DNA of 53,645 nt from the NCBI GenBank assembly GCA_022844265.1, contig JALHMA010000002.1:16686-70330 (forward strand), read 5' to 3'. The notes beneath the pieces are model-generated. The model was not told the origin of the DNA. It saw only the letters and a list, made by a program, of their open reading frames with translations, and did no database searches. Positions 32,030-50,412 of this stretch are shown one piece after another (the first letter of the stretch is position 1; each line of letters begins with the position of its first letter). The position numbers and the translations under genes were made by a program. The DNA is from Saprospiraceae bacterium. Its GTDB lineage: Bacteria; Bacteroidota; Bacteroidia; Chitinophagales; Saprospiraceae.

Positions 32030-32128
32030 CAGCCAGGCTTTTTCCGGCTGAAATATAACGGGTTATGACCAATGCTTTGGGTTATTCTTTTCCTAAATGT
32101 GGAATTTGGCTTGAAATATCCTTTTTTA

Positions 32129-32513: not shown

Positions 32514-32514
32514 G

Positions 32515-34775: not shown

Positions 34776-36071
34776 ATGCGCCTTTTGTTCTTCACTTTTT
34801 TGTTGTCTCACACACTTTCTGGACAGACTTATCAATCGTTTTACACCGGCGACACGACCGATGTTACCACTGCCACGCAGGGTGGGGTGGTGCTGATGGG
34901 TGGCGCAACAGAGGACGACAATGCCATGCGCTGGTTTTTGGAGCAGAGTGGCGGCGGCGATGTGGTAGTTATTCGAGCCAGTGGCTCTGACGGCTACAAT
35001 GATTACTTTTTTAGCGAGTTAGGTGTGGCGGTCAACTCTGTGGAGACCATTGTAACTTCCAACCTTATTGCTGCGCAACAACCTTATGTCGCGCAGCAAA
35101 TCCGCAATGCCGAAGCCTTGTGGATTGCCGGAGGCGACCAGGGCAAATACGTGCAGTTCTGGAAAAATGAATCGGTAGAAGATGCGATTAAGTACCTGAT
35201 TCATACTAAGAAAGCAGTAGTGGGCGGCACCAGCGCCGGAATGGCTATTTTAAGTGATGCTTATTTTTCTGCCCTGAACGGCAGCATCACTTCCGCAGAA
35301 GCATTGGCAAATCCATACCATTCCAAAATGACGATCGGCTACAACGATTTTATAGATCATCCTGATTTACAATACGTTATAACTGACACCCATTATGACG
35401 ACCCCGACCGCCGGGGCAGGCATATGGCATTTATGGCACGATTGACACAAGACCGCGGCGTCAGGGCGCTGGGCATCGCCTGTGAGGAATACACAGCCGT
35501 TTGTGTGGATTCCGCCGGGCGCGCGCGCGTTTATGGCGGATATCCGCAGGATCAGGACTACGCCTACTTTTTACAGGTCGATTGCAGCCCGGATTTTTTA
35601 CCGGAAATATGCGCCCCCAACCAAGCCCTGCATTGGGTGCGTGGAGAGCAGGCGGTACGGGTTTTTAAAGCGGAAGGCCGATCCAACGGGCAGGTGACAT
35701 TTAATTTGCGCGACTGGCAAACCAACTCCGGCGGCGGTGTCTGGCAGCAATGGTGGGTAGAAAACGGCGTGCTGCAAACGGGGCCTTCCGGTTCGCCGGA
35801 TTGTTTGAGCGCAACCGATCATCCGGGGAATGATCCGGCTGTTTTTCGTATTTCACCAAATCCAGCCCGGGTTTTATTACAAATGGAACTGAAGGAGAAT
35901 CTTTTGCCGGCGCAGGTAGAAGTCCTTGATTTGCAGGGAAAATGCTTTTTTACGCAAAAAGTCACTACAACTGATTCTTCCATTCAGGTCAACGACTGGC
36001 CCTCTGGGATGTATTTTTTCCGGGTTAAAAGCAGCGGCATGTCCTATTGCCGGCGGGTGGTGATTGAATAA
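34776..36071 (+). CDS. Secreted cyanophycinase (S51) with T9SS type A sorting domain
   Basis: A 431-aa protein. After a signal peptide (to about LSGQ), the S51 domain (about 25-280) carries GGVVLMGGATEDD, WIAGGDQGKYVQFW and the nucleophile block VVGGTSAGMA with Ser153; later DTHYDDPDRRGRHMAFMAR contributes the catalytic histidine region. Cyanophycinases hydrolyse the Asp-Arg polymer cyanophycin. A C-terminal T9SS type A sorting domain (about 360-431; ISPNPARVLLQMEL, PSGMYFFRVKSSG) directs secretion, pointing to extracellular use of cyanophycin or related peptides. A weaker box TACCTTGG lies at 34749-34756, 19 nt before the ATG; ten upstream in-frame codons are not used. Confidence 0.93.
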   Translation: MRLLFFTFLLSHTLSGQTYQSFYTGDTTDVTTATQGGVVLMGGATEDDNAMRWFLEQSGGGDVVVIRASGSDGYNDYFFSELGVAVNSVETIVTSNLIAAQQPYVAQQIRNAEALWIAGGDQGKYVQFWKNESVEDAIKYLIHTKKAVVGGTSAGMAILSDAYFSALNGSITSAEALANPYHSKMTIGYNDFIDHPDLQYVITDTHYDDPDRRGRHMAFMARLTQDRGVRALGIACEEYTAVCVDSAGRARVYGGYPQDQDYAYFLQVDCSPDFLPEICAPNQALHWVRGEQAVRVFKAEGRSNGQVTFNLRDWQTNSGGGVWQQWWVENGVLQTGPSGSPDCLSATDHPGNDPAVFRISPNPARVLLQMELKENLLPAQVEVLDLQGKCFFTQKVTTTDSSIQVNDWPSGMYFFRVKSSGMSYCRRVVIE

Positions 36072-36093
36072 TGGATATTTGGAGGACCATGCT

Positions 36094-36194
36094 GATTTTA
36101 AGGGATGAGGAATGAGGGATGAGGAATGGCCGAGCATGATGTCGGACATAACGCTCGGCCATTCCTCATCCCTCATTCCTCATCCCTTAAAATC
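36094..36194. repeat. 50-bp palindrome (ggatgag heptads, gccgagc core)
   Basis: Arms 36094-36143 and 36145-36194 are reverse complements with two mismatches and one central base. Heptads ggatgag/ggaatga alternate outside; the core gccgagc...tgtcggacataacgctcggc is the same as in 5232-5306. The two mismatches lie in the inner core. It lies between two convergent genes; right arm ends 6 nt before the next stop. Confidence 0.96.
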
Positions 36195-36200
36195 TGTGTT

Positions 36201-36689
36201 CTATTTCCGTGATCCATTGCGAGACTTAAAAGACCAAGTGATCCACACCTTTACAGCGACCGTCTCATCGGGCAGCCGGCCAACAGAAGCGGCGCGGTAT
36301 ACCTGTGCTTCCCCACTTTCCAGGGCCAGTTCTATGGCCTTCGCCAGTTCAGCGCCTTCCGTGCAGGTAAAAAGCAGTGTTTGATCCGCTTTTTTCAAAA
36401 ATTCTGCTTCAATATGCGTCACCAGCATGGAAACCGGCTGCTTATCCTGCAAATGCGCCAATGCCAGAATACCGGTGGAAAGTTCTGCAGCGGCGCACTG
36501 TGCAGCAAAATAAGTGGACCGAAAAGGATTTTGGGAACGCCACCCATAAGGAAGTGAAACGGTCGCCTGCTCCGTATCGCAATGCCGGACGCCAATGCCC
36601 ATAAACCAGGCCGAAGGAAGTTTTTGAAACAGGAACAGTCGCATCTTCCAGGAAGTATTCACCAATCGTAAAAACACTGATAACTTCAT
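36201..36689 (-). CDS. DUF4442 hotdog-fold protein
   Basis: A 162-aa protein. The stretch MKLSVFLRLVNTSWKMRLFLFQKLPSAWFMGIGV, then RSQNPFRSTYFAAQCAAAEL with the hotdog helix (NPFRSTYFAAQCAAAE) and the late strand VKVWITWSFKSRN, fit DUF4442, a thioesterase-like family related to acyl-CoA hydrolases. No catalytic role has been shown for most members. The ATG at 36689 is chosen because the promoter box at 36707-36714 excludes the longer frame to 36749. Confidence 0.88.
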   Translation of the reverse strand: MKLSVFLRLVNTSWKMRLFLFQKLPSAWFMGIGVRHCDTEQATVSLPYGWRSQNPFRSTYFAAQCAAAELSTGILALAHLQDKQPVSMLVTHIEAEFLKKADQTLLFTCTEGAELAKAIELALESGEAQVYRAASVGRLPDETVAVKVWITWSFKSRNGSRK

Positions 36690-36706
36690 CGCTGAAACTT
36701 TTTGGG

Positions 36707-36714
36707 CAAATGTA
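36707..36714 (-). promoter_or_regulatory. -7 box (TACATTTG) of the DUF4442 gene
   Basis: Exact TAnnTTTG match, 17 nt before the ATG at 36689. Confidence 0.6.
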
Positions 36715-36843
36715 TAGTTTACTAAATCGTTAATATTGGTGAATGCCAAAATTAATATGCTAAACCGGCTTATTTTTCCGGCATAATTTCTATTATTTCA
36801 AAGCATACGGTAAATCATTCGTTCACTATTCAATTTTTAAGAC

Positions 36844-37314
36844 ATGGAATGGAGAAGACTCAATGGCCAGCGTATAGCGCAACCATTGCTGAATGCGGTA
36901 GAGGAAACCTTGCGGCGGGAAAAGGCAGATGGGTACAACATGAAAGTTTGTATCGGAACTGATTCTCAAGTAATAGGAACAGAGGTGCATTTTGCCACTG
37001 TTATTGTGTTTTTGCGCGAAAAGCGCGGAGGTTTTATGTTTATTTCTAATGACAAAAGTGTACGGAAAATGACCCTGCGCGAACGAATGATTCTGGAAGT
37101 AGGCCGCTCCGTTGAAGTAGCTTATTCGCTTTGTCATCTGCTCGACGAACACGATGTCGCCCTCGAAGTACATGCCGATATCAATACCGATCCTGCGTTT
37201 GAAAGCAATACGGCCCTGAAAGAAGCAATGGGTTATATCCTGAGCATGGGTTTTGTATTCAAAGCCAAGCCAGACGCATTCGCTTCCTCCTGCTGCGCCG
37301 ATAAAGTGATCTGA
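36844..37314 (+). CDS. YkuK-like RNase H-fold protein (DUF458)
   Basis: A 156-aa cytoplasmic protein. The opening pattern VCIGTDSQVIGTEVHFATVIVFL has the RNase H-type acidic residue (GTDSQ), and HADINTDPAFESN carries further acidic residues, as in the YkuK (DUF458) family. YkuK-type proteins have an RNase H-like fold, but their substrate is not established. A 66-codon frame on the minus strand overlaps its 3' end. It sits alone between the DUF4442 and M16 genes. Confidence 0.85.
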   Translation: MEWRRLNGQRIAQPLLNAVEETLRREKADGYNMKVCIGTDSQVIGTEVHFATVIVFLREKRGGFMFISNDKSVRKMTLRERMILEVGRSVEVAYSLCHLLDEHDVALEVHADINTDPAFESNTALKEAMGYILSMGFVFKAKPDAFASSCCADKVI

Positions 37315-37433
37315 TTTGCCTTTTTTTCTTCGCTTTTAGCCCCTTTGCCGGACTTAGCCAAACTTTCATCGAATAACAGATGCAGGTAGCCTTCCTTTTT
37401 TAGGAACTTCGCGGCGAATTTCATTTTCATCAT
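37233..37433 (-). CDS. Possible small basic protein (66 aa), overlapping
   Basis: Minus-strand frame MMKMKFAAKFLKKEGYLHLL, then DESLAKSGKGAKSEEKKANQ. The first 40 residues fill the otherwise empty gap 37315-37433 and look protein-like (amphipathic, Lys-rich); the last 26 are antisense to the YkuK-like gene. No family recognised and no clear promoter box. It may be a real short protein or a chance frame. Confidence 0.35.
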   Translation of the reverse strand: MMKMKFAAKFLKKEGYLHLLFDESLAKSGKGAKSEEKKANQITLSAQQEEANASGLALNTKPMLRI

Positions 37434-37450
37434 TAAAAAATAACGGGTTT

Positions 37451-38767
37451 ATGCAGCGACTTATCACGCTCTTGCTCCTTTGCTGCCTCTCAGCAGGAAC
37501 AACTTTCAGCCAGAATATCAAGTTCGTCGAATACGATTTGGACAATGGTTTGAAAGTACTTTTACACGAAGATCATTCTACGCCCATTGTCGCCGTTTCG
37601 GTGATGTACCATGTGGGTTCCAAGAATGAAAAACCCAACCGCAGCGGCTTTGCCCACTTTTTTGAGCACCTGCTTTTTGAAGGTTCGGCCAACATCAAAC
37701 GCGGCGAATTTGACGATTACATCAACAATGCAGGCGGAACGAACAACGCCAATACCTGGTATGACCGCACCTACTACTACGAAGTATTGCCGAGCAACCA
37801 ACTGGCGCTCGGACTTTGGCTGGAAAGCGAACGTATGCTCCAGGCAAAAGTAGAGCAGATTGGTATTGAAACACAACGCCAGGTCGTGAAAGAAGAACGC
37901 CGCCAACGGGTTGATAATCAGCCTTACGGCGCATTGTTGGAAGAAACGATGAAGCGCGTTTTCAAGGTGCATCCGTACAAAAGTTCCGTCATCGGTTCCA
38001 TGGATGATCTCGATGCGGCACAGGAAGTAGATTACAAACAGTTTTACAAGGATTTCTACCGCCCGGACAATGCAATTCTCTCCATTGCAGGCGATATCAA
38101 CATCGAGCAGGCGAAAGAAATGATCAACGTTTATTTCAAAGATATTCCACGTGGTACGGGCGTCATTCAGCGCACTTTCCCGCAGGAACCTCCGATGAAA
38201 GGCGTTACCCGCGACACCATATATGACAATGTACAATTACCTGCAGTCATTTTCGGGTACCACATTCCGGCACAAGGAACTCCCGATTTTTACGCCGTAC
38301 AAATGCTCAGTACCCTGCTCAGCCAGGGAGAAAGCAGCCGTATGAACAAAGTGATTGTCGATGAACAACAAAAAGCCGTTGCCGCAGGCTCCTTCCCGCT
38401 CCAACTGGAAGATCCGGGCGCTAACCTGGCTTATGCCATCGCCAACATGGGTGTGAATCCTGCGGAATTGGAAAAATCTATGGATGCCGTGATTGAAGAT
38501 GTTCAGAAGAACCTGATCTCGGAAAAAGAATTCCAGAAACTGCAGAATCAGATTGAAAACGACTTTGTCAGCGCCAATGACAACGTAGCCGGTATTGCAG
38601 AAAGCCTGGCCAACTACGAAATGTATTTCGGCGACGCCAACCTGATCAATACTGAACTGGAACGTTTCCGCAAAGTGACCCGCGAAGACCTCCGTACCGC
38701 TGCAAACAAGTACTTTAACAAAAATGCCCGCGTGATCCTGTATTGGATGCCCAAGGTAGCACCGTAA
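37451..38767 (+). CDS. M16-family zinc metallopeptidase, catalytic subunit
   Basis: A 438-aa processing-peptidase-like protein with a signal peptide (MQRLITLLLLCCLSAGTTFS). The inverted zinc motif HFFEH (H69, E72, H73) is intact, and the distal glutamate lies in VVKEERRQRVDNQP. The middle and C-terminal M16 halves (SAGTLLSQGESSRMNKV-type block LLSQGESSRMNK) are complete. Exported, so it acts in the periplasm or at the outer membrane. It is followed after 138 bp by a second M16 protein lacking the motif, the usual pairing for M16B heterodimers. Confidence 0.95.
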   Translation: MQRLITLLLLCCLSAGTTFSQNIKFVEYDLDNGLKVLLHEDHSTPIVAVSVMYHVGSKNEKPNRSGFAHFFEHLLFEGSANIKRGEFDDYINNAGGTNNANTWYDRTYYYEVLPSNQLALGLWLESERMLQAKVEQIGIETQRQVVKEERRQRVDNQPYGALLEETMKRVFKVHPYKSSVIGSMDDLDAAQEVDYKQFYKDFYRPDNAILSIAGDINIEQAKEMINVYFKDIPRGTGVIQRTFPQEPPMKGVTRDTIYDNVQLPAVIFGYHIPAQGTPDFYAVQMLSTLLSQGESSRMNKVIVDEQQKAVAAGSFPLQLEDPGANLAYAIANMGVNPAELEKSMDAVIEDVQKNLISEKEFQKLQNQIENDFVSANDNVAGIAESLANYEMYFGDANLINTELERFRKVTREDLRTAANKYFNKNARVILYWMPKVAP

Positions 38768-38776
38768 TTTCCTTTT

Positions 38777-38854
38777 TTTACCACATCACAAAGCGTTAGA
38801 CACACAGATAACATGTGTTCTATGTGAAAAAACTATTGTGTATTATGTGGTAAA
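38777..38854. repeat. Degenerate palindrome (ccacat family)
   Basis: Only the outer 10 bp pair perfectly (38777-38786 with 38845-38854: tttaccacat / atgtggtaaa); the inside is a diverged acacag/catgtg repeat. It lies between the two M16 genes. Weaker member of the family at 11.6 and 25.6 kb. Confidence 0.7.
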
Positions 38855-38905
38855 TATTCTCCTTTCTGTTGAAGTTTATTTCACAACTTATTGAAATTCA
38901 AATAA

Positions 38906-41053
38906 ATGAAAAAAGCGCATTTTTTTACGCTGTTTGCTGCACTGCTTCTTTTTGCCTGCACGCCTAAAAGCAGCGACAAAATGAGCGGCACACCAGCTGC
39001 CAAATCAACAACTGCGCCTGCGATGTCGGGCGATATAAGGGCAGCGGCGCCCCTGGCCGGTCCTGCACCAAAAATCCAGATCGGTAAAGCCGAAACTTTT
39101 AAACTGGAAAATGGCCTTACCGTTATTGTCATGGAGAACCACAAACTTCCGAAGGTATCCTTCCAGGTTTTTGTGGATTACGATCCCACACTTGAAAAAG
39201 ATGCCGCAGGTTATGTGGATATGATGGGCGATATGCTTTCCAAAGGCACTGCAAAACGCAGTAAGTCGCAAATCGACGAGGAAATCGACTTTTTGGGCGC
39301 TTATATCTCCTCCAGCGCCAATGGCGTGTCGGGCGGCTGCCTCAGCAAACACTCCGACAAATTGCTGGAAATCATGTCCGATGTGTTACTCAACCCGACT
39401 TTTCCGCAGGAAGAATGGGATAAAGTAAAACGCCGCGTGGAAAGCGGACTTGCACAGGAAAAAAATGACGCCAATGCCATTGCAGGCAAGGTAGCCTCTA
39501 TCCTGCGTTATGGCAAAGACCACCCTTATGGCGAGCAGATGACGGAAGCCACGCTGGCTAAAATCAGTGTGGATCAGTTCAAAAGCCACTATGAGAAATA
39601 CCTCAAACCGAACATCGCTTATTTCGTAGTAGTGGGCGACATCACAAAAGCGCAGGCTGAAAAATATGCCCGCCAATATTTCGGCGCCTGGAAAAAAGGA
39701 GATGTATCCAAACATACCTATCCTACGCCGGCACAACCGGAAAAAGCACAGGTTGATTTTGTACACAAACCCGGTGCTGTCCAGTCGGTTATCAATATCA
39801 CTTATCCGGTGGAATTGCGCCCCGGCACCCCCGACGTTATTCGTAGCCGGGTAATGAATGCGATCCTGGGCGGTTATTTCAACAGCCGGGTGAATGCCAA
39901 CCTGCGCGAAGGGCACGGGTGGACGTACGGCGCGCGCACTTCCCTGAATGCGGATAAATTGATCGGCTCCTTTACGGCCAGCGCTTCTGTTCGCAATGCA
40001 GTATCGGATAGTTCTATTATCGAGTTCTTGAAGGAAATGAACCGTATGCGCACCGAACTCGTACCTGTGAGTGAATTGCAGGTGGTGAAAAATGTGATCA
40101 CCGGCCAATTTTCCCAAAGCCTGGAAGAACCGGGTACCGTAGCCAATTTTGCACTTTCCACCGCACGTTACGGCTTACCTGCCGATTACTATGAAAAGTA
40201 CCTGGAAGTGTTGCAAAGTGTAACGCCTCAAGAGGTATTGACAATGGCACAGAAGTACATCAAACCCGGACAGGCTCATATCCTTGTCGTAGGTAACAAA
40301 GATGATGTGGCTGATCGCCTGAAGCAGTTTTCCCCCGAAGGAAAAATCAACTTCTTCGATGCACAGGGAAATCCGGTGAAAACGAACAATACCGGGATTC
40401 CGGATGGTATGACTGCTGAAAAAGTGGTGGAAGACTATATCAATGCCATCGGAGGCGCCGCCAAAATTGCCATGCTCAAAGACGTTCAGACAACAGCCTC
40501 CATGCAAGTAAGCGTTCAGTCGCTGAATGTTGTTACCTGGCAGAAAGGCGGCAATAAAGTTGCCATGGAAATGGGTATGAACGGTCAGATATTCTCCAAA
40601 CGCGTATACGATGGCACTACCGCATCCGAATCAGGTATGGGTAACGTCCGCACGCTGGAAGGCGAAGAACTGGCCGACCTGAAAGAACAGGCTGCTTTTT
40701 GTAAAGAAGCCAATTATGCCACAGGTGGTTACAAACTTGCTTTGAAAGGCGTCGAGGAAGTAAATGGCAGCAATGCTTATGTTGTGGAAGTGGAACGACC
40801 CGACGGTAAAAAAACGACGGAGTACTACGACATGAAAAGCAGCCTGAAAGTACGCGAAGTTAGTGCAACGACTGGTCAGGACGGATCGCCGGCTACCATG
40901 ACCATCGATTTTGCGGACTATAAGGAATCCAATGGTGTGAAATTTCCTAACACTATGGATATCAATGGTTTGATGCCTATTCCAATTAAGTCTACGGTCA
41001 GTGAAATCAAGGTAAATACAGGTATCGACGACAAAGTTTTCAACCTGAAATAA
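38906..41053 (+). CDS. M16-family non-catalytic subunit lipoprotein fused to a LolA-like domain
   Basis: A 715-aa lipoprotein (LFAC, Cys18). Residues about 60-500 form the M16 fold, but the HxxEH site is replaced by YVDMMGDMLS, so it is not a zinc peptidase itself. It keeps a Gly-rich substrate-loop segment (HGWTYGARTSLN) with the Arg/Tyr pair expected of the inactive M16B partner. Residues about 505-715 add a beta-rich LolA/outer-membrane lipoprotein-like domain (ending IDDKVFNLK). With the upstream catalytic subunit it likely forms an envelope M16 heterodimer. The LolA-like fusion suggests binding of a hydrophobic or membrane-bound substrate. Confidence 0.92.
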   Translation: MKKAHFFTLFAALLLFACTPKSSDKMSGTPAAKSTTAPAMSGDIRAAAPLAGPAPKIQIGKAETFKLENGLTVIVMENHKLPKVSFQVFVDYDPTLEKDAAGYVDMMGDMLSKGTAKRSKSQIDEEIDFLGAYISSSANGVSGGCLSKHSDKLLEIMSDVLLNPTFPQEEWDKVKRRVESGLAQEKNDANAIAGKVASILRYGKDHPYGEQMTEATLAKISVDQFKSHYEKYLKPNIAYFVVVGDITKAQAEKYARQYFGAWKKGDVSKHTYPTPAQPEKAQVDFVHKPGAVQSVINITYPVELRPGTPDVIRSRVMNAILGGYFNSRVNANLREGHGWTYGARTSLNADKLIGSFTASASVRNAVSDSSIIEFLKEMNRMRTELVPVSELQVVKNVITGQFSQSLEEPGTVANFALSTARYGLPADYYEKYLEVLQSVTPQEVLTMAQKYIKPGQAHILVVGNKDDVADRLKQFSPEGKINFFDAQGNPVKTNNTGIPDGMTAEKVVEDYINAIGGAAKIAMLKDVQTTASMQVSVQSLNVVTWQKGGNKVAMEMGMNGQIFSKRVYDGTTASESGMGNVRTLEGEELADLKEQAAFCKEANYATGGYKLALKGVEEVNGSNAYVVEVERPDGKKTTEYYDMKSSLKVREVSATTGQDGSPATMTIDFADYKESNGVKFPNTMDINGLMPIPIKSTVSEIKVNTGIDDKVFNLK

Positions 41054-41093
41054 AAGAAGCATTCCATTGCTTCCACAAAACGAGTATTTTTGC

Positions 41094-41130
41094 GCGCCCT
41101 GTTGCTATTCCGGCAGCAGGGCGCATTTTT
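41094..41130 (+). terminator. Intrinsic-type terminator after the M16 lipoprotein gene
   Basis: GC-rich stem gcgccctg...cagggcgc (41094-41101 / 41117-41124) extended by four more pairs including one G-T pair, followed by a run of T (41126-41131). Confidence 0.7.
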
Positions 41131-41140
41131 TACACACACC

Positions 41141-41148
41141 TAATTTTG
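41141..41148 (+). promoter_or_regulatory. Possible -7 box (TAATTTTG) before yajC
   Basis: TAATTTTG, 6 nt before the ATG at 41155; an apparent TTG start at 41146 is part of the box. Confidence 0.5.
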
Positions 41149-41154
41149 AAAGAA

Positions 41155-41454
41155 ATGTTACAATTCGTTTTTCTACAGGCACAACCCGGCGGTAATCCAT
41201 TGCTGAGTATGTTGTTTCCATTCCTGATACTGATTGTTTTTTATTTTTTCCTGATCCGTCCGCAAATGAAGCGGCAGAAAGACCAGCAAAAATTTGTGGA
41301 AAGCCTCAAAGAGGGCATGGAAGTAGTCACCAGTGCAGGCCTGATCGGTCGCATTACAAAAATTGACGGACCGGTTGTTCGCCTCATGGTGGATGAAAAA
41401 ACTTTCATCCGTGTTGTCAAAACTTCTATCCAAGGCGAATTCAAAAGCGCATGA
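41155..41454 (+). CDS. yajC: Preprotein translocase subunit YajC
   Basis: A 99-aa inner-membrane protein from the ATG at 41155. A short periplasmic N terminus (FLQAQPGGNPLLSML) is followed by one membrane helix (FPFLILIVFYFFLI), the YajC signature RPQMKRQKDQQKF, and a cytoplasmic domain (VVTSAGLIGRITKIDGP). YajC associates with SecDF in the Sec translocase; secD/secF are not adjacent here. Its stop overlaps the ATG of the next open frame (ATGA). Promoter box at 41141-41148. Confidence 0.95.
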   Translation: MLQFVFLQAQPGGNPLLSMLFPFLILIVFYFFLIRPQMKRQKDQQKFVESLKEGMEVVTSAGLIGRITKIDGPVVRLMVDEKTFIRVVKTSIQGEFKSA

Positions 41455-42497
41455 TAACTGCTTTGGTGTTTGGTGTTTGGTGTTTGGTGTTTGGGGCGCT
41501 TCGCCTTTGGCCGTGTTTGGGGTTTAGGTTTTGGTGTTTCGGACACTTGTCCATGCTACTAACTATTGCCAAAAGCGGAGCGCCCCAAACACCAAACACC
41601 AAACCCCAAACACGGCCAAAGGCGAAGCGCCCCAAACACCAAACACCAAACACCAAACACGTTTTTGCGCTTTGCTTTCTCGTGTTGTTGTGCGTACAAA
41701 TGTCGGCACAAAGTCCATGGACACGCGGAAAAGCAGGTTTTTATGCCCAGGCGGCCTGGCAGACGATTCCGACCTACCAATACATTTACGATAAAGATGC
41801 GATGGATGGGAAACGGGCTTTGGAAAGGGAAATCGCGGAGAACGCATTTCAACTGTACGGAGAATACGGTATTTCACATAAAACAACCGTATGGACGGCT
41901 ATTCCCTACCGTTTCGTACGCTCCGGTGGGGTAGTCGGCAATGCACATACACAACTGCAGTCAGGCGCCTTGCGCGGCTTCGGGAATGTTTCGGTTGCGG
42001 TCCGGCAAAATTTTATAGATGGAAATTTGGCCTTCAGTGGTCAGATCAGGATTGATCTCCCCAGGAATAAAGAAAGTCAGATCACCGGGCTGAGTACCGG
42101 TTACGACGCCCTGACCCTGTTTTCCACGCTTAGCATAGGGCAGGGTTACGGAAAAATCTACTGGTATGCCTATGCCGGTTGGGGCGGTCGCGGAATCATA
42201 AGCAATCATTTTATACATGCCGGTTCGGAAGCCGGCGTGAAATGGCGTAAACACTGGTTCATTCTGTTCAGCGATTATTTGCAGAACATCGGATCGGAAA
42301 CCTATTTTGTCTCGCCGGCCAACATTAAAACGGGGCTTTTTCTGCCAGACCAGAGTTATTGGGCTTTCGGCGGGAAAGGAATTTTTGCATTCAGTCGCTT
42401 TTTCGGCGGCATGCTCACCGCTGCCGGCGCCTTCAACGGCGACCTCGTACCCAGCCAACCCGCGTATTCCGCAGGTCTGTATTTCAAATGGGATTAA
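41451..42497 (+). CDS. Putative outer-membrane beta-barrel protein, N terminus in a palindrome
   Basis: The conserved part begins around residue 70 with a signal-peptide-like stretch (VFALCFLVLLCVQMSAQ) and then a beta-barrel pattern to the C-terminal YFKWD, resembling small transporter-like porins (phenol-degradation MetA-type family at most). The first 69 codons are translated palindromic repeat (VFGVWCLV, then QTPNTK/PKAKRPKHQ). The only in-frame ATGs before the signal peptide are 41451 (overlapping the yajC stop) and 41553 (in the loop). So either the ATG in the repeat is used, giving an odd N terminus, or the original start was destroyed by the element. The barrel assignment is fair, the start is not known. 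Confidence 0.65.
   Translation: MITALVFGVWCLVFGALRLWPCLGFRFWCFGHLSMLLTIAKSGAPQTPNTKPQTRPKAKRPKHQTPNTKHVFALCFLVLLCVQMSAQSPWTRGKAGFYAQAAWQTIPTYQYIYDKDAMDGKRALEREIAENAFQLYGEYGISHKTTVWTAIPYRFVRSGGVVGNAHTQLQSGALRGFGNVSVAVRQNFIDGNLAFSGQIRIDLPRNKESQITGLSTGYDALTLFSTLSIGQGYGKIYWYAYAGWGGRGIISNHFIHAGSEAGVKWRKHWFILFSDYLQNIGSETYFVSPANIKTGLFLPDQSYWAFGGKGIFAFSRFFGGMLTAAGAFNGDLVPSQPAYSAGLYFKWD
41466..41660. repeat. Perfect 60-bp palindrome inside the 5' part of a coding frame
   Basis: Arms 41466-41525 and 41601-41660 are exact reverse complements. The arms are tgtttgg heptads flanking gcgcttcgcctttggcc. The loop (75 nt) includes a third partial copy (41568-41600). The heptad unit has no stop codon in any frame, so the whole element stays open in six frames. 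It starts 12 nt after the yajC stop. Confidence 0.96.
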
Positions 42498-42501
42498 GTA
42501 C

Positions 42502-42520
42502 CGCCGAACCTTGTTCGGCG
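42502..42520. repeat. Small hairpin (cgccgaac / gttcggcg)
   Basis: 8-bp arms 42502-42509 and 42513-42520 with a 3-nt loop, starting 4 nt after the barrel gene's stop. Same word family as 15033-15073. Confidence 0.65.
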
Positions 42521-42634
42521 TTGGTTGAGGTTAAATTCAAAAATGCCCACTAGTATGGGTTTTAGCGAAAAAATCGGGACACTGGTCGGGAAATGACAAC
42601 CGCATCAGGCGCCGCTTATGCATTTTTGCCCCGT

Positions 42635-42675
42635 TCTCACTACTCACCACTCACCACTCACGATTCACCACTCAC
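42635..42675. repeat. Solo heptad run (actcacc) abutting a start codon
   Basis: About five actcacc/attcacc heptads, without an opposite arm, ending one base before the ATG at 42677. Confidence 0.7.
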
Positions 42676-42676
42676 A

Positions 42677-43462
42677 ATGAGAAGCAACCACGAAATTGAC
42701 TACAAAATCCACGGCGAAGAGATGCAATGCGTCGAAATTGAACTTGATCCGCAAGAAACGGTCATCGCCGAGTCGGGCAGTTTTATGTTTATGGACGAAG
42801 GCATCGAAATGGCCACCGTTTTTGGTGACGGCAGCGGTCGGGCGGAAGGGTTTTTCGGAAAACTCATGACGGCGGGTAAACGCCTGCTGACAGGTGAAAG
42901 CCTGTTTATGACGACTTTCACCAACCATGTGCACGGAAAACAAAAGGTGACTTTTGCAGCGCCTTATGCCGGTAAAATTGTGCCCTTGGATTTGATGCAT
43001 TATAACGGTAAAATTATTTGCCAAAAAGACGCATTCCTCTGCGCCGCCAAAGGTGTACAGGTGGGCATCGAATTCCAGCGCAAACTGGGCACAGGCCTGT
43101 TTGGCGGCGAAGGTTTTATCATGCAAAAATTGGAAGGCGACGGCATGGCATTCGTACATGCGGGCGGTTATATCCTCGAACGCGAATTGCAGGTCGGTGA
43201 AACCCTGCGGGTCGATACCGGCTGTATTGTTGCATTTACCAGCAGGGTAGACTATGATATTCAGTTCGTAAAAGGGGTGCGCAATATGGTTTTCGGCGGC
43301 GAAGGTTTGTTTTTCGCCGTGCTGCGTGGCCCGGGAAAGGTATGGTTGCAATCACTGCCGGTCAGCCGTTTGGCGGCCAAGATCATTTCCTACGGCACGT
43401 ACAACCGCAAAGAAGAAGGAAGTATCCTCGGCGGTCTGGGTAATATGCTGGACGGGAATTAA
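42677..43462 (+). CDS. AIM24/TIGR00266-family protein
   Basis: A 262-aa cytoplasmic protein. Family hallmarks: [31 protein letters not shown] in pieces ([13 protein letters not shown]), and a late [22 protein letters not shown] (GPGKVWLQS). Such proteins form beta-sandwich trimers; the mitochondrial homologue AIM24 is linked to membrane organisation, bacterial function unclear. ATG at 42677 is preferred; 28 upstream codons read through the heptad run. The next gene, tyrS, has its own promoter box. Confidence 0.93.
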
Positions 43463-43490
43463 ATCATTATGACAAATTGGAATGTTGCTC

Positions 43491-43498
43491 TACTTTTG
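43491..43498 (+). promoter_or_regulatory. -7 box (TACTTTTG) upstream of tyrS
   Basis: Exact TAnnTTTG match, 68 nt before the ATG at 43567, leaving a long leader with no obvious riboswitch or T-box. Confidence 0.5.
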
Positions 43499-43566
43499 CG
43501 GCCCCTTGGGAAACTTTTATCCCGTTTTTATCATTCCCTTGTGGCAACAACTAACGCAACATAGAC

Positions 43567-44844
43567 ATGGACTTTGTTTCAGAACTCCGCTGGCGCGGAC
43601 TTATTCACGATGTAACACCGGGTATCGAAGAGCACATGCAAAAAGGCCCGATACGCGCTTATATCGGTTTCGACCCTACGGCTTCTTCGCTGACGATTGG
43701 AAATTATGTCCAGATCATGCTGCTGACCTTCCTGCAACGCGCGGGACACCAACCTGTTGTGCTTATGGGCGGCGCTACCGGGCGCATTGGCGACCCGAGT
43801 GGAAAAGACAAGGAACGTGAACTGAAAAGTTACGATGAACTGGATGGCAATATTGCCCGCCAGATGTTGCAGATGAAGCAATTTCTGAACTTCGATCCCG
43901 CGTTATCCAACCATGCCCTGCTGCTCAATAACTACGACTTTTACAAAGACATGAACGTACTCGATTTCCTGCGGGACGTTGGTAAGTACCTGACTGTCAA
44001 TTACATGATGTCGAAGGAAAGTGTGAAACGCCGCATAGAAGGAGAAACAGGCATTTCCTTTACCGAATTCAGTTACCAGTTGCTGCAAGGCTACGATTTT
44101 GTTTTATTGAATCGCGAGCACAAGATCAGCGTACAGATGGGCGGCTCGGATCAATACGGCAACATCACTGCCGGGGTAGAACTGGCCCGCAAGATCGACG
44201 AAGCCAAAGTATTTGCACTGACCACGCCGCTGCTGACCAAAGCGGACGGTACCAAATTTGGCAAAAGCGAAGGCGGCAATATCTGGCTGGACCCGGCTAT
44301 GACCAGCCCTTACAAATTTTACCAGTTCTGGTTGAACGCGGATGACCGCGATCTACCCAAATACCTGCGTTACTTCTCCCTGCGCGGAAAGGAAGAAATA
44401 GAAGCATTGGAAAGTACCGAAACACCACAGGCCATCAAGCGCGTTTTTGCGGAAGAAATGACCAGACGGGTGCATGGAGATGCCACTTTTGAAGCGGTAT
44501 TGGCGGTTTCGGCGTTGCTGTTTGATCCGAAAGCCGATGCGGAGACGCTGCGCAGCCTCGATGCCAACATGCTGGCGCAGGTAGTGGAAGAAATACCTTC
44601 ACCTAAAATATCGGCTTCGTTGTTGCTGGAACCTCAAAATCTGCTGGACTTTTTAAGCGATCAAACAGGCATTTTATCGAGCCGTACGGAAGCAAAAAAA
44701 GCCATTCAGAACAACGCAATTTCTGTCAATAAGGTCAAAATAACCGATTTGAATACCACAGTAAGCGATACAGACTTGCTGCATGGACGATTCATTATGG
44801 TGGAAAATGGTAAGAAAAACAAGTTTTTGGTGGAAATCACTTAA
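43567..44844 (+). CDS. tyrS: Tyrosine-tRNA ligase
   Basis: A 425-aa class I aminoacyl-tRNA synthetase that charges tRNA-Tyr. The catalytic half has YIGFDPTASSLTIGNY, where the usual HIGH motif reads TIGN (43-46), then GRIGDPSGKDKER, GGSDQYGNI, KADGTKFGKSEGG (KMSKS equivalent KFGKS) and the C-terminal S4-like RNA-binding domain (about 360-425: ILSSRTEAKKAIQNNAISVN). Thr for His in the HIGH motif is worth noting but the rest is canonical. Stop overlaps the convergent Uma2 gene by 8 nt. Confidence 0.97.
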   Translation: MDFVSELRWRGLIHDVTPGIEEHMQKGPIRAYIGFDPTASSLTIGNYVQIMLLTFLQRAGHQPVVLMGGATGRIGDPSGKDKERELKSYDELDGNIARQMLQMKQFLNFDPALSNHALLLNNYDFYKDMNVLDFLRDVGKYLTVNYMMSKESVKRRIEGETGISFTEFSYQLLQGYDFVLLNREHKISVQMGGSDQYGNITAGVELARKIDEAKVFALTTPLLTKADGTKFGKSEGGNIWLDPAMTSPYKFYQFWLNADDRDLPKYLRYFSLRGKEEIEALESTETPQAIKRVFAEEMTRRVHGDATFEAVLAVSALLFDPKADAETLRSLDANMLAQVVEEIPSPKISASLLLEPQNLLDFLSDQTGILSSRTEAKKAIQNNAISVNKVKITDLNTTVSDTDLLHGRFIMVENGKKNKFLVEIT

Positions 44845-45457
44845 ACAAATCCGCCAACCGCAACTCAAACCCCGGCAGCACCTCGCCACCTGATAAAGTG
44901 TCGTCAAAAGAAACGGTCTGTATATCGCCATTCTCTGTGTACACAAATGTCTTGCGGCCCTGTGGATCGACGAGCCAGCCCAGGCGGCAGCCGACGGCGA
45001 TATATTCCTCCATTTTCTCCTTCAAATAAGCCAGGCTTTGATCTTCCGACCGAAGTTCCAGTACAAAGTCTGGCGCAATGGGTGCAAAGCGTTTGCGTTC
45101 AGCCTGGGTCAATGCTTCCCAGCGGTCTTTGCGTATCCAGGCTAAATCGGGTGAACGTTCAGCGCCGTTGGGTAGTTTAAAACCGGTGGAAGAGTCGAAA
45201 CCTTCTCCCAATTGATATTTTCGATTCCAAATAGCCAACTCCGCTACAATTTCAAAGTTCTTATTGCCAGTTTCAGATGTTGTGGGGGCCATAATGAAGA
45301 TGTTTTTCTGTGCATCGCGCTCGATGCGCAACTCGGGATTAAGTTGACAGAACTCAAAAAATGTTTCATCATTCATGACGCTGTTGGGTAGCCTGAAAGA
45401 AATGCCCGGAAATGTTTGTTCATCTTGCTCAGGAGTAACATGCAGTGCTGCTGTCAT
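44837..45457 (-). CDS. Uma2 family endonuclease-like protein
   Basis: A 206-aa PD-(D/E)xK-type restriction-fold protein (DUF820). Features: MAPTTSETGNKNFEIVAELA, GFKLPNGAERSPDLAWIRKDRW with the conserved SPDLAW acidic residue, FVLELRSEDQSLAYLKEKMEEYIAVGCRLGWLVDP (LELRS and GWLVDP blocks). Uma2 proteins are common in cyanobacteria and in some Bacteroidota, often in many copies; their role is unknown. Convergent with tyrS. Promoter box at 45475-45482. Confidence 0.93.
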   Translation of the reverse strand: MTAALHVTPEQDEQTFPGISFRLPNSVMNDETFFEFCQLNPELRIERDAQKNIFIMAPTTSETGNKNFEIVAELAIWNRKYQLGEGFDSSTGFKLPNGAERSPDLAWIRKDRWEALTQAERKRFAPIAPDFVLELRSEDQSLAYLKEKMEEYIAVGCRLGWLVDPQGRKTFVYTENGDIQTVSFDDTLSGGEVLPGFELRLADLFK

Positions 45458-45474
45458 AAGAAATGATTTTGAAA

Positions 45475-45482
45475 CAAAAATA
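45475..45482 (-). promoter_or_regulatory. -7 box (TATTTTTG) of the Uma2 gene
   Basis: Exact TAnnTTTG match on the minus strand, 17 nt before the ATG at 45457. Confidence 0.58.
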
Positions 45483-45536
45483 ACGGAATTTCACAAATAT
45501 CTGCACCTGAAAAACAGCATCACCGTTTTTCACCCC

Positions 45537-45562
45537 AATAACTGATAACGAATAACCGATAA
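45537..45562. repeat. Solo heptad run (ataactg/ataaccg)
   Basis: Four heptads running straight into the stop codon (45563-45565) of the cystathionine beta-synthase gene. Same word family as the arms at 50.3 kb. Confidence 0.65.
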
Positions 45563-46921
45563 CTATATGGCCTGAATCAAATCATACTGTGTCACAATAT
45601 GCAAGCCGCCGGAACGGTCGGTCGCAATAACGGCAGGAATATCCTTGCTGATAAAGCGGTTTAGGTGACTGATCGGCATGTTGTCTTTCACCACCGGAAA
45701 TGCTTCGCCCATGACCGCTTTGAGTGGCTTTTCCGCATTTTGCAGCGGGTTTTCCAGCAGAATATGCAGCACCTGTGTTTCGGTGATGGAGCCGACTACT
45801 TTGTCGCCGTCCTGTACGGGCAGTTGACTGATGTCGTGCGATTTCATCAGGTTGAATGCGCTGCGCACCGTGTCATCCACCTGTGCGGCCAGGAAACGGC
45901 GGTCTTTTTTGCGGGCGATCAGGTCGCTTACTTTCATTTCTTCTTCCAGGAACCCGCGTTCACGCATCCAGTCGTCGTTGTAGATTTTGCCGACATAACG
46001 GCTGCCGTGGTCATGGAAAATGAGCACTACCACGTCATTTTTCTTCAGGCGGCCGCGCAGTTGCCACAGTGCGCCCATAGCGCTGCCTGCGGAATAACCC
46101 AGTAGAATTCCTTCTTCGCGGGCGAGCCGACGCGCCCATAGCGCCGCATCTTTATCACTTACTTTTTCAAATAAATCAATGAGTCCGAAATCGACGTTGG
46201 CGGGAAGAATATCTTCCCCGATGCCTTCTGTGATGTAAGGGTAAATCTCTTTGGGGTCAAAAACGCCCGTTTCATGGTATTTTTTGAACACAGAACCGTA
46301 CGTGTCGGCGCCCCATACCTGAATATTCGGATTTTTTTCTTTCAGGAATTTGGCCACGCCGCTGACCGTTCCGCCAGTACCCACACCTACTACGAGGTGC
46401 GTGATTTTGCCATCAGTTTGTTCCCATATTTCGGGGCCGGTACTTTCGTAATGCGCCTGGCGATTGGAGAGATTGTCGTATTGATTGCACCAAAACGAAT
46501 TCGGAATTTCGGTGCTGAGTCGACGCGCTACGGAATAGTAGGAGCGTGGGTCGTTGGGCTCTACGTTGGTTGGGCAAACAATCACTTCTGCGCCAACAGC
46601 CTTTAATAAATCGACTTTTTCCTTGCTCTGTTTATCCGTTGTGGTAAAAATGCAGCGATATCCGCGTACACAGCCCACTAAAGCGAGTCCCATACCCGTG
46701 TTGCCGGAGGTGCATTCGATGATCGTACCGCCCGGTTTGAGATCTCCCCGCGCCTCGGCGTCATCGATCATTTTGACCGCCATACGGTCTTTGGTGCTGT
46801 GTCCCGGATTGAATGTTTCCACTTTGGAAAGCACCAAAGCAGGTATATCGGCCGCGACATTGTTCAGTTTTACAAGCGGGGTGTTGCCTATGGTTTCGAG
46901 GATATTTTTCTTATAATTCAT
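45563..46921 (-). CDS. Cystathionine beta-synthase-like PLP enzyme with CBS pair
   Basis: A 452-aa enzyme. The PLP domain (about 1-320) has NTPLVKL, FNPGHSTKDR with PLP Lys44, ECTSGNTGMGLA, WCNQYDN and VVGVGTGGTVSG. Two CBS domains follow (about 335-452) for nucleotide regulation. It condenses homocysteine and serine to cystathionine, or makes cysteine from activated serine. The usual GGSxKDR is here GHSTKDR. The ATG at 46921 is chosen because the promoter box at 46985-46992 overlaps the longer frame's TTG start. No cystathionine gamma-lyase is nearby. Confidence 0.93.
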   Translation of the reverse strand: MNYKKNILETIGNTPLVKLNNVAADIPALVLSKVETFNPGHSTKDRMAVKMIDDAEARGDLKPGGTIIECTSGNTGMGLALVGCVRGYRCIFTTTDKQSKEKVDLLKAVGAEVIVCPTNVEPNDPRSYYSVARRLSTEIPNSFWCNQYDNLSNRQAHYESTGPEIWEQTDGKITHLVVGVGTGGTVSGVAKFLKEKNPNIQVWGADTYGSVFKKYHETGVFDPKEIYPYITEGIGEDILPANVDFGLIDLFEKVSDKDAALWARRLAREEGILLGYSAGSAMGALWQLRGRLKKNDVVVLIFHDHGSRYVGKIYNDDWMRERGFLEEEMKVSDLIARKKDRRFLAAQVDDTVRSAFNLMKSHDISQLPVQDGDKVVGSITETQVLHILLENPLQNAEKPLKAVMGEAFPVVKDNMPISHLNRFISKDIPAVIATDRSGGLHIVTQYDLIQAI

Positions 46922-46984
46922 TCGTTGACTATATTTTTTGCCAGGACAAAATTCAAAAAGTGTTTCAGTTGGATTTGGAGCGCG

Positions 46985-46992
46985 CAAAATTA
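46985..46992 (-). promoter_or_regulatory. -7 box (TAATTTTG) of the cystathionine beta-synthase gene
   Basis: Exact TAnnTTTG match on the minus strand, 63 nt before the ATG at 46921. Confidence 0.55.
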
Positions 46993-47052
46993 GCGCTTTT
47001 ATACCCCGTTGAAAACGATTTTGTTGATTTTACAAAAAAGGAATACGGGGTT

Positions 47053-47155
47053 AGGATAAAAAGAACACGGATTGAATGGATGAGACACGGATTTAAGCGT
47101 ACAAAAAACTTAAAAATCCGTGTCTCATCCATTCAATCCGTGTTCCTTTTATCCT
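47053..47155. repeat. 42-bp palindrome (acacggattgaa family)
   Basis: Arms 47053-47094 and 47114-47155 are reverse complements with one mismatch. Related to 22895-22987, but both arms here read gaatgg where both arms there read gaaggg. Between two genes on the minus strand. Confidence 0.95.
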
Positions 47156-47181
47156 ATTCTAAATCCGGAAACGCAGTATTG

Positions 47182-47904
47182 TTATTCTTCCACCGGCGCA
47201 GGGATGGTCGCCAGACTCACGATATTATCATTGGGTTCATCGCTTTCAATGAGTCCGTCGCGCAAACGCACCACGCGGTGGGCATGCAGCGCAATGTCAT
47301 GTTCGTGCGTAACCAGGATGACCGTGTTGCCTGCTTTATGGATTTGTTCAAACAAGCCCATGATTTCATAGGATGTTTTACTGTCCAGGTTACCGGTCGG
47401 TTCGTCGGCCAGAATAATAGCCGGATCGTTCACCAAAGCACGTGCCACGGCGACGCGTTGGCGCTGACCGCCGGAAAGTTCGTTGGGTTTGTGGTTCACA
47501 CGGTCGCCGAGGCCGACCGATTCCAGCACTTTGCGGGCCTTGGCAAGTCGTTCTTCCCTGCCGATACCTGCATATACCAGCGGCAGCGCTACGTTTTCCA
47601 GCGCCGACAACCGGGGCATCAGGTTGAATGTCTGGAATACAAATCCGATTTCCTTGTTTCGCACTTCTGCCAGTTCGCCGTCGTCCATGGTGCTGACTTC
47701 CGTGCCGTTGAGCCAGTATTCGCCGCTGGTAGGGGAGTCCAGGCAGCCAAGCAGGTTCATGAGCGTGGACTTGCCACTACCTGAAGGCCCCATGAGTGCG
47801 ACGTATTCATTTTTGGCGATATCCAGAGATACGGTTTTGAGCGCCTCGACGATTTCGGCGCCCATAATATATGTCTTGTTGAGATTTTTGATTGAAATCA
47901 GCAT
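47182..47904 (-). CDS. ABC transporter ATP-binding protein, MacB type
   Basis: A 240-aa ATPase. Walker [11 protein letters not shown]-loop [12 protein letters not shown], signature [15 protein letters not shown], Walker [14 protein letters not shown]-loop LVTHEHD. The [16 protein letters not shown] opening and LALP-type spacing ([10 protein letters not shown]) match the MacB/lipoprotein-export group. It lies 42 nt after the 54-aa membrane protein gene and after gatC on the same strand, so the three probably share an operon. No permease gene is adjacent. Confidence 0.93.
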
Positions 47905-47946
47905 TTTTCAGTACGATGTATATGAAAAGGATGTGTATGCAGGATA

Positions 47947-48111
47947 TCAGGTTCGTTTTTTTCTTAAAAACAATCCCGTTACTACGGCAAATAAACCGAC
48001 GAGCAAACCGGTAAATTTGCCAATCAGGTAGGGAAACCAGCGATCTGCAATGAAGTAGAGCAAAATGGCAACAACCCCGAAAATAATGATCCAGTAAAGT
48101 GGTTTTCGCAT
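47947..48111 (-). CDS. Small two-helix membrane protein (54 aa)
   Basis: A minus-strand frame of 54 residues: MRKPLYWIIIFGVVAILLYF, a short basic loop around DRWFPYLIGK, and a second hydrophobic stretch (TGLLVGLFAVVTGLFLRKKRT). Two membrane helices with a positive C-terminal end on the cytoplasmic side. Its ATG is 2 nt after the gatC stop, so translation is coupled to gatC. No family recognised. Confidence 0.75.
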   Translation of the reverse strand: MRKPLYWIIIFGVVAILLYFIADRWFPYLIGKFTGLLVGLFAVVTGLFLRKKRT

Positions 48112-48113
48112 GT

Positions 48114-48401
48114 TTAATCAATCATTTTAGGTACCATAAAAAACTGCCCGTTTTGCTCCGGGGCGTTTTGCAGCGCTTCTGATGTAGTGAGTTGTCGGCC
48201 CACTTCGTCCGCTCTCAGTACATTTACGGCATCATTGAGGTATACCAGTGGTTCTACATGCTCCGTATCTAAAGCGCGCAGGGTGTCTACCATATCCAGA
48301 ATGCGCTGAAGATCGCCTGTAAGTTTTTCACGTTCGGCATCTCCGAGTTGCAAACGGGATAGTTTTTCAAGGCGTGAAATAAGCGCTGCATCGATTTGCA
48401 T
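48114..48401 (-). CDS. gatC: Aspartyl/glutamyl-tRNA amidotransferase subunit C
   Basis: A 95-aa subunit of the GatCAB amidotransferase, which converts misacylated Asp-tRNA-Asn or Glu-tRNA-Gln. Features: LISRLEKLSRLQLGDAEREKLTGDLQRILDMVDTL (ISRLEKLSRLQL, DLQRILDMVDTL), VEPLV, RADEV, and the C-terminal FMVPKMID, which are the conserved GatC core. Length is normal. gatA and gatB are not adjacent. The next gene starts 2 nt after its stop. Confidence 0.94.
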   Translation of the reverse strand: MQIDAALISRLEKLSRLQLGDAEREKLTGDLQRILDMVDTLRALDTEHVEPLVYLNDAVNVLRADEVGRQLTTSEALQNAPEQNGQFFMVPKMID

Positions 48402-48528
48402 AAAAAAAGGTTAGAAGTTTGTGACAATATGACCGTTCAACGTGGCCTGTCACTCGTTGAACGAAATTTAATTTATCGGATGTTGATAAAAAATGTGCGG
48501 GAAGGGCAATACCCAACGGCCAACAATT

Positions 48529-48536
48529 TACCTTCG
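48529..48536 (+). promoter_or_regulatory. -7 box (TACCTTCG) of the deoxynucleoside kinase gene
   Basis: TACCTTCG, 20 nt before the ATG at 48557. Confidence 0.55.
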
Positions 48537-48556
48537 CTGCGCACAAAAGTACAGCA

Positions 48557-49207
48557 ATGAATCAAAGCTTACCATCCGATAAATCAATTATCAAACATGT
48601 TGCCATCGCCGGGAATATCGGGGCGGGCAAAACGACCCTCTGTGAAATCCTGGCCCGCCACTTTGGGTGGGATGTTCACTACGAGGACACTGAAAGCAAT
48701 CCTTACCTGTCCGATTTTTATATGGACATGAAACGCTGGTCTTTCAACTTACAGGTTTTTTTCCTTTCCAGCCGCTATCAGCAGGTTTTGCGCATCCTGA
48801 ATGGCAATCGCACGGTCATACAGGATCGTACGATTTATGAAGATGCATTCATTTTTGCCCCGAATCTGGCAGATATGGGACTGATGGAGCGCCGGGATTT
48901 TGAAAACTACCTGACGCTTTTTCAGTCTATCGTTTCGCAGGTAAAAGCGCCGGATCTGCTGATTTACCTGAAAGCGAGTATCCCAACGCTGGTAGAACAC
49001 ATTCAAATGCGCGGGCGCGACTACGAAGGAAGTATCAGCATCGACTACCTCAAACGCCTCAACGAGCGCTACGACAACTGGATCGGCAACTACCGGGAAG
49101 GTAAATTGCTGGTGATCAATGTCGATCAACTGGATTTTTCCAGCAATAAAGAGGACTCCGGGAAGGTGCTGGAAATGGTACAGGCTGAATTACACGGATT
49201 ATTCTAA
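48557..49207 (+). CDS. Deoxynucleoside kinase (dNK/dGK family)
   Basis: A 216-aa kinase that phosphorylates deoxynucleosides for salvage. P-loop GNIGAGKTT (19-27), substrate block YEDTESNPYLSDFYMDM, the DRT variant of the DRS motif in VIQDRTIYED (about 93-99), and a lid region RGRDYEGSISIDYL with Arg residues. Purine versus pyrimidine preference cannot be decided. It is followed after 13 nt by the MmcQ/YjbR gene in the same direction. Confidence 0.94.
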   Translation: MNQSLPSDKSIIKHVAIAGNIGAGKTTLCEILARHFGWDVHYEDTESNPYLSDFYMDMKRWSFNLQVFFLSSRYQQVLRILNGNRTVIQDRTIYEDAFIFAPNLADMGLMERRDFENYLTLFQSIVSQVKAPDLLIYLKASIPTLVEHIQMRGRDYEGSISIDYLKRLNERYDNWIGNYREGKLLVINVDQLDFSSNKEDSGKVLEMVQAELHGLF

Positions 49208-49220
49208 ATATGCCAGGCCA

Positions 49221-49574
49221 ATGGATATCGAACAGTTTCGCGACTACTGTTTAGCCAAAAAAGGGGTCATCGAAGACTTTCCGTTCGGTGAAATGACGCT
49301 TTGCATGAAAGTGGTGGGCAAAATATTTGCCATCACAGGCCTCGATGGCGCACAGTTTACCGTAAACCTGAAATGCGATCCCGATTATGCACTGGAATTG
49401 CGCGAACAATATCCGGAAGTACAGCCCGGTTTCCACATGAATAAAAAGCACTGGAATACGGTCGATTTTGAAGGCTCGCTCGAAGAACGGCTGCTTCGCC
49501 ATCTTATCGATCACAGCTATGAGCAGGTGGTCAAGTCGCTGAAAAAGGCGGAAAAAGAAGCGCTGGAAGGTTGA
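49221..49574 (+). CDS. MmcQ/YjbR-family DNA-binding protein
   Basis: A 117-aa CyaY-like-fold protein. The start MDIEQFRDYCLAKKGVIEDFPFG, MKVVGKIFAI, VNLKCDPDYALELREQY and FHMNKKHWNTVDF (HMNKKHWN is diagnostic) fit MmcQ/YjbR, which binds double-stranded DNA in characterised members. ATG at 49221 gives the family N terminus; upstream codons to 49119 overlap the kinase gene. The last two codons are part of the 51-bp palindrome arm. Confidence 0.92.
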   Translation: MDIEQFRDYCLAKKGVIEDFPFGEMTLCMKVVGKIFAITGLDGAQFTVNLKCDPDYALELREQYPEVQPGFHMNKKHWNTVDFEGSLEERLLRHLIDHSYEQVVKSLKKAEKEALEG

Positions 49575-49691
49575 TGAGGGTTTATAAGGGTTGATAAGGT
49601 TGATATACAGCCACTCGAAAAGGGGACTTTCCTGCTTCATTCGAGTGGCTGTATATCAACCTTATCAACCCTTATAAACCTTCATCAACCT
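49568..49691. repeat. 51-bp palindrome overlapping a stop codon
   Basis: Arms 49568-49618 and 49641-49691 are reverse complements with one mismatch, extendable by one more pair. Outer words gggtttata/gggttgata repeat about every 9-10 nt. The left arm contains the MmcQ/YjbR stop codon (49572-49574) and the right arm ends one base before the stop of the next, convergent gene. Confidence 0.96.
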
Positions 49692-50294: not shown

Positions 50295-50295
50295 G

Positions 50296-50407: not shown

Positions 50408-50412
50408 AAGGT

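Follow-up and report, generated by a model that had tools for sequence, protein, structure and literature searches.

Rickettsia palindromic elements (RPEs) are described as palindromic repeats of ~150 nt that lie inside reading frames without breaking them, having been inserted into genomic open reading frames (ORFs) and carrying a conserved peptide (PMC10969869). Arrays of the heptamer TAACTGA, reported for Beggiatoaceae, Cyanobacteria and some Bacteroidetes, are described as intergenic, many of them lying just before start codons (PMC4679880), and template switching between inverted-repeat arms has been described in yeast coding DNA (PMC8604942). We analysed a window of 53,645 nucleotides from a Saprospiraceae bacterium, whose genome (G000) is one draft assembly of 561 contigs, and in which a palindromic repeat lies between yajC and the signal peptide of an outer-membrane barrel gene.

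As in the RPEs so described, this repeat would be read in frame; it measures 195 nt (65 codons) and is stop-free. By contrast with that description, the element here is ordinarily intergenic and probably reached the frame by loss of the gene's start. As to insertion into the coding region, the close relative G030 carries an element of this type ahead of its ATG. With the heptamer arrays of PMC4679880 the locus shares seven-base tandem words in intergenic DNA abutting gene boundaries, whereas the arrays of that account are direct, with one indirect repeat, and those here have two arms and a core, use several words and lie mostly after stops. In a G000 sample of 470 ORFs, period-7 arrays lay no more than 8 nt past the stop codon of 43 and never in mid-gene, and 10 array-ATG matches (two from one locus) preceded a start; period 8 gave 10 and 1, and the other periods from 5 to 10 gave 0-2. 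The family is also short, dispersed and mostly intergenic, like MITEs and REP-type palindromes, and has the terminal inverted repeats of a MITE (arms by construction), but unlike a MITE it lacks target duplication at the arm ends.

A hairpin element within the barrel reading frame

The plus-strand yajC gene (41155-41454; PF02699, YajC, E 6e-24) ends in a TGA stop at 41452-41454, and the barrel ORF of 348 aa (41451-42497) is open along its whole length. The array of heptads begins 12 nt past the yajC stop, and the hairpin element of the TGTTTGG family (41466-41660, assigned to no strand) occupies exactly residues 6-70 of the open frame. The first-pass annotation had reported a 60-bp palindrome in frame near the start of a coding region, which we confirm, the 60 bp being the perfect outer arm (on the plus strand, left 41466-41525 and right 41601-41660) of a longer element with an imperfect 75-nt middle. 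At a complementarity of 93%, the inverted-repeat arms extend to 82 nt (41466-41547 and 41579-41660), and the right arm comprises two tandem 47-nt units on the plus strand (41568-41661; 93% matches). The longest arm in 500 dinucleotide shuffles of 41301-41800 was 18 nt, and the RNA fold of 41431-41720 reached -172.5 kcal/mol (z -17.7), with 0 of 200 shuffles equally good. An Rfam search of 35000-51000 gave 29 matches, all under the gathering score and all to microRNA-type or snoRNA hairpin models. Translated in the barrel frame, the left outer arm yields a hydrophobic stretch and the right outer arm a basic one, with D and E absent from both.

The right arm runs directly into GTT TTT GCG, and the rest of the signal peptide (VFALCFLVLLCVQMSAQ; 41661-41711, plus strand), which relatives begin with their own start codon, leads to the mature outer-membrane barrel and its stop codon (41712-42497, plus strand). 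The mature protein is taken to start at SPW, after a typical signal peptide with a predicted cleavage site. The barrel matched no family in Pfam or NCBIfam; its AlphaFold2 model, built on a 24-sequence alignment (window plus 23 relatives), consists mostly of beta strands (pLDDT 90), and its best Foldseek matches in the PDB were FapF (E 8e-10) and a COG4313 channel (E 1e-9), at 9-14% identity.

Between the barrel genes of G000 and G030, dN/dS was 0.07 with a pS of 0.73, so that dS is near saturation; for most other barrel pairs dS was not computable. The two barrels are similarly distant from those of G015, G008, G006 and G037, with G008 and G006 near-identical to each other, and the coding region shows no sign of decay or acceleration. 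These data bear on the reading that the barrel is no longer translated in G000, or that some bases of the right arm are missing from the assembly, as the lack of a conventional start, the draft of 561 contigs and the two G030 contigs (C82 and C505) that end beside a hairpin present in the window at 36094 might suggest. However, the 277-codon frame from 41664 is intact and its dN/dS low without acceleration, even if a very recent loss would not show, and the locus is syntenic with relatives on both flanks; we consider lost translation or misassembly quite improbable. Just downstream, a one-armed heptad array of CTCACCA words (42636-42679) ends 4 nt before ATG 42680, where a gene for an AIM24 family protein (PF01987) starts, and elsewhere in the window two copies of an 81-nt unit (2543-2701; 78% matches) are possibly coding repeats.

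Ancestral and putative present starts

Of 100 genomes from the genus, family and order, 33 yielded the barrel, and among the 30 loci fetched, one of them the window's, yajC adjoins the barrel gene in 20, window included. In every one of the 19 yajC-linked relatives, the motif [ST]PW is preceded at 19-26 codons by an ATG (taking only ATGs at least 15 codons from the motif), and the window genome has no ATG 15-52 codons before the motif. Ten fetched relatives had no yajC found nearby; in nine of these an ATG closely precedes the signal peptide, and in one (L024) only a TTG does. In a midpoint-rooted tree of yajC and barrel, the window genome groups with G008, G006, G030, G015, G034 and G027 (support 100/99), in a branching order that the tree does not fix for G000, G030 and the G015 group. 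In all six clade-mates yajC stops in TAA and a separate ATG follows after a gap of 128-152 nt (with the start MR[NK]F common to G030, G027 and G034), and the TGA stop giving an ATGA overlap is found within the clade in the window genome only.

G030 is the closest relative by DNA identity (74-82% over long matches versus 72-85% for G015; 80% versus 77% over the longest comparable pieces) and by barrel identity (69%). Its yajC-barrel gap holds a TGTTTGG/TGTGTAG hairpin whose array starts 5 nt past the yajC stop, differing from the window's by one heptad; ATGAGGAAC is retained downstream of this hairpin, and the sequence past it reads TTCTTCTGGTTGGT ATG AGG AAC TTC. The two elements differ in core and loop, and the G030 arms are imperfect. 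No empty site lacking the element was found among the relatives, and scans of genome contigs with the barrel and with a 25-nt core pattern matched no second strain.

The ancestral start is conserved in relatives, and G030 has an element of the same type before its ATG; the element was therefore probably intergenic, with the start lost where its right edge now lies. The first-pass annotation had offered loss of the gene's start as one of two options, and it gains support from the ATG that relatives conserve and the window genome lacks; orthologues do start at another codon, which that annotation had thought would count against its proposal, and this is the very codon that the window genome has lost. 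We give about an even chance to the course of events in which an element inherited as intergenic DNA erased the start at its right edge and the gene came to be read through it, most likely from 41451. A dispersed heptad-armed hairpin would have stood in the yajC-barrel gap before the window genome and G030 split, and in the window lineage its right edge would have grown or been rewritten, removing the spacer together with the ATG of the barrel gene and about one codon after it. By chance the element would have been 65 codons long and stop-free in the needed frame, so the gene could survive by read-through, and the long N-terminus may be tolerated with a basic right-arm peptide preceding the intact signal peptide. 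The erasure may have occurred by copying one arm onto the other (template switching), as the first codons would be overwritten if the left arm were copied outward on the right side or if the outer 47-nt unit were added; a plain deletion would leave the same picture. Judged by type and position only, the G030 and window elements are probably one inherited insertion, although the element may have arrived independently in G030, where its type is common (73 first-look candidate places), which counts against start loss.

The comparison with relatives also bears on an RPE-like insertion in frame, in which the ancestor already used 41451 and the 195-nt element entered after codon 5 of the signal peptide. 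A length of 65 codons fits such an event, and joining the flanks without the element gives the in-frame sequence MITALVFALCFLVLLCVQMSAQ, which could plausibly serve as a signal peptide from 41451, and leaves 62 nt from stop to SPW, matching the 62-65 nt of G004, G007 and G023, whose starts overlap the yajC stop. However, the gaps, TAA stops and separate ATGs of all six clade-mates, together with the same element type at nearly equal distance from yajC in G030, mean that the ancestral gap would have to be lost and the same family freshly inserted, and we regard this insertion as unlikely.

Start loss leaves the question of where translation begins now. As the first-pass annotation had stated, and a codon listing bears out, the only in-frame ATGs before the signal peptide are 41451 and 41553; TTG or GTG codons occur in frame upstream of the signal peptide at 41463, 41466, 41484, 41487, 41517 and 41547. 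No ATG, GTG or TTG separates the element from the signal peptide in the window genome, and the next alternative start codon, GTG 41682, lies within the signal peptide and would leave ten residues before SPW. We scored start context with a model contrasting 334 ORF starts (median 4.6) with 3054 internal ATGs (median -4.5), its training starts being the first ATGs of long ORFs, probably including 41451. The plus-strand ATG that overlaps the yajC stop (41451-41453) scored 4.29, at the 46th percentile of starts and the 99th percentile of internal ATGs, and the plus-strand ATG in the loop region of the fold (41553-41555) scored -0.62, at the 13th percentile of starts. Native starts of ten relatives ranged from -1.9 to 7.6, and the score is not decisive because those of G030 (-1.9) and G015 (-1.6) fall below 41553. 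The weight of 41451 is further reduced by its position in the A-rich 3′ end of yajC, and its use would add a second hydrophobic stretch, with the hydrophobic left-arm and basic right-arm stretches preceding the signal peptide. By context, 41451 is most likely the best present start, and ribosomes finishing yajC could use its overlapping ATG.

The other option of the first-pass annotation, that the element supplied a new start, would make the loop ATG 41553 the present start after loss of the old one and have the element provide a basic n-region as well (MLLTIAKSG...RPKAKRPKHQTPNTKH). This ATG is in frame, and from it the protein would have a single hydrophobic stretch, following a basic stretch free of D and E; in addition, 46 of 68 arm readings of family copies match the motif at the loop base, 14 with ATG there and 6 with TTG. 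A start built in at the loop base was rejected as a family trait, being seen in a minority of copies. With its weak context and its place between the arms of a long stem, set against the typical context of 41451 outside the element, a start at 41553 is the less likely of the two, and we think it rather improbable.

A dispersed TGTTTGG hairpin family

The element is not special to the barrel gene but is one of a large dispersed family. A 21-nt TGTTTGG pattern with one mismatch allowed gave 105 genome matches per strand, counting overlapping matches inside one array separately, and a reversed control gave 0. Among 100 genomes, the window's included, it matched 210 times in G000, 52 in G015, 7 in G030 and once each in G009, G061 and G084, and a whole-copy query returned 132 first-look candidates in G015 besides those in G030, 40 of each being scored. 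Defining hairpins by arms of at least 18 nt, at least 80% pairing and a span of at most 350, we found 221 in 722,189 sampled bases, or one per 3.3 kb, and none in 190 kb of mononucleotide-shuffled sequence. Words of the TGTTTGG family occur in 34 of them, 20 in the 311,859 bases picked for pattern matches and 14 in the other 410,330, window included.

A typical copy reads GTGTTTGG...GGGGCGCTTCGCCTTTGGC, a loop and the mirror image, and 18 of 34 copies open with GTG and close with CAC precisely where the detected arms end. In 33 of 34 copies no target duplication adjoins the arm ends, and flush identical flanks of at least 2 nt were seen in one, though arm ends may not be insertion ends. An 8-nt complementarity outside the barrel element (AAAGCGCA / TGCGCTTT) was considered as the remains of an older hairpin target and rejected as too weak; flank complementarity of at least 8 nt was found in 28 of 219 true pairs, many extending their own arms, versus 5.8 of 219 mismatched pairs (2.6%). 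One family's words lie between the arms of another, in the order outer-inner-outer, in six of six nested hairpins (L051 14704-14994 and 16364-16648; L142 5270-5453; L138 7190-7377; L052 15744-15990; L048 12099-12304). Loop-targeted insertion was set aside as a candidate, since six of 221 hairpins holding a second family's words (by nine word patterns of our own) are too few to test.

The first-pass annotation had held that the heptad TGTTTGG has no stop in any frame and that the insert does not break translation. The former is read directly from the heptad, but harmlessness fails as a general rule and was rejected: 14 of 34 copies have no open frame at all, and 21% of frames are open in family copies versus 32% in length-matched random genome pieces, coding DNA included. 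Open passage in a given frame is thus about a one-in-five event. We inspected 21 places where the family frame is long or open; seven run into a protein recognised by eye, and each of these keeps a start after the element (six ATG, one GTG). At L047 11982-12100 a start also follows the element, ahead of a Porph_ging protein.

Hairpin positions and arm rewriting in related genomes

Of the intergenic hairpins in 450 kb, 89 have known neighbours, and 39 of these lie in convergent, 44 in codirectional and 6 in divergent gaps, compared with a split of 58, 145 and 51 for the 254 adjacent ORF pairs that are more than 40 nt apart; a further 26 hairpins partly overlap an ORF and 11 lie inside one. Using mechanical ORF calls, we examined 52 gaps, of which 30 were matched in G015 and 34 in G030. 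Hairpins were present in both G000 and G015 in 12 gaps, in G000 only in 3, in G015 only in 3 and in neither in 12 (Fisher p 0.003), and the corresponding counts for G030 were 8, 6, 4 and 16 (p 0.036), both p values being raw and without control for gap length or orientation. Where both genomes of a pair have a hairpin in the gap, no more than 7% of 8-mers are common to the largest hairpins in 10 of 12 cases (G015) and 5 of 8 (G030). For some gaps this comparison exaggerates turnover: in the window, TGTTTGG arms surround the compared hairpin at 32029-32514, where G015 has the TGTTTGG family and the G030 words take the related form TGTTTTGG, one that 8-mers may fail to catch; weak hairpins are involved in the pairs at 15051 and 47904. 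At intergenic window positions 36094, 47052, 49567 and 50296, the G015 hairpins differ in sequence from the window's; G030, comparable at the first three, has a different hairpin at 49567, one of the same family at 47052 and none at 36094.

The yajC-barrel gap is absent from the 52 because the barrel ORF runs through it. Its hairpin is of the same type in G030 and of other sequence in G008, G006, G015, G034 and G013, and no hairpin was found in G027 and G019 (gaps >100 nt) or in short gaps. Related genomes therefore tend to keep hairpins in the same intergenic gaps, often of different sequence, and in a limited search of open-licence literature we recognised no earlier description of such slots by title.

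Changes within hairpins were followed in G006 and G008, which align over 271 kb at 95% identity. Among 34 hairpins in the G008 stretch, 17 were comparable with G006, 10 were not spanned and 7 had no match. Raw counts over 363 arm pairs gave 334 unchanged, 19 with a change in one arm only, 9 altered in both arms yet still paired, and 1 altered in both with pairing lost; one hairpin had an inverted loop. Paired arm changes and an inverted loop are what template switching yields, although selection on RNA structure could also explain the paired changes. Arm homogenisation and spacer inversion between two close genomes resemble template switching as described (PMC8604942; PMC8794818), whereas here, unlike in the yeast account (PMC8604942), we infer it as the cause of a lost start codon. 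The same two genomes differ by 24 clean small indels, and five hairpin-bearing ones have end overlaps of 2-7 nt, the pattern expected of target duplications, which suggests that they are mobile and MITE-like.

We put forward as a tentative and somewhat doubtful generalisation that the genus keeps hairpin slots with exchanged families whose arms are kept perfect by copying, and that such turnover between yajC and the barrel gene consumed the start, giving a protein whose 65-residue N-terminus is encoded by the element and whose translation is coupled to that of yajC. At the barrel gene itself, a repeat looks to have been caught in the act of moving the start of a conserved gene, and since the ancestral start can still be read in close relatives, the event and its repair are both testable. 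That related species fill the same gaps with different hairpins would be informative about the role of such repeats in the host and about how they spread.
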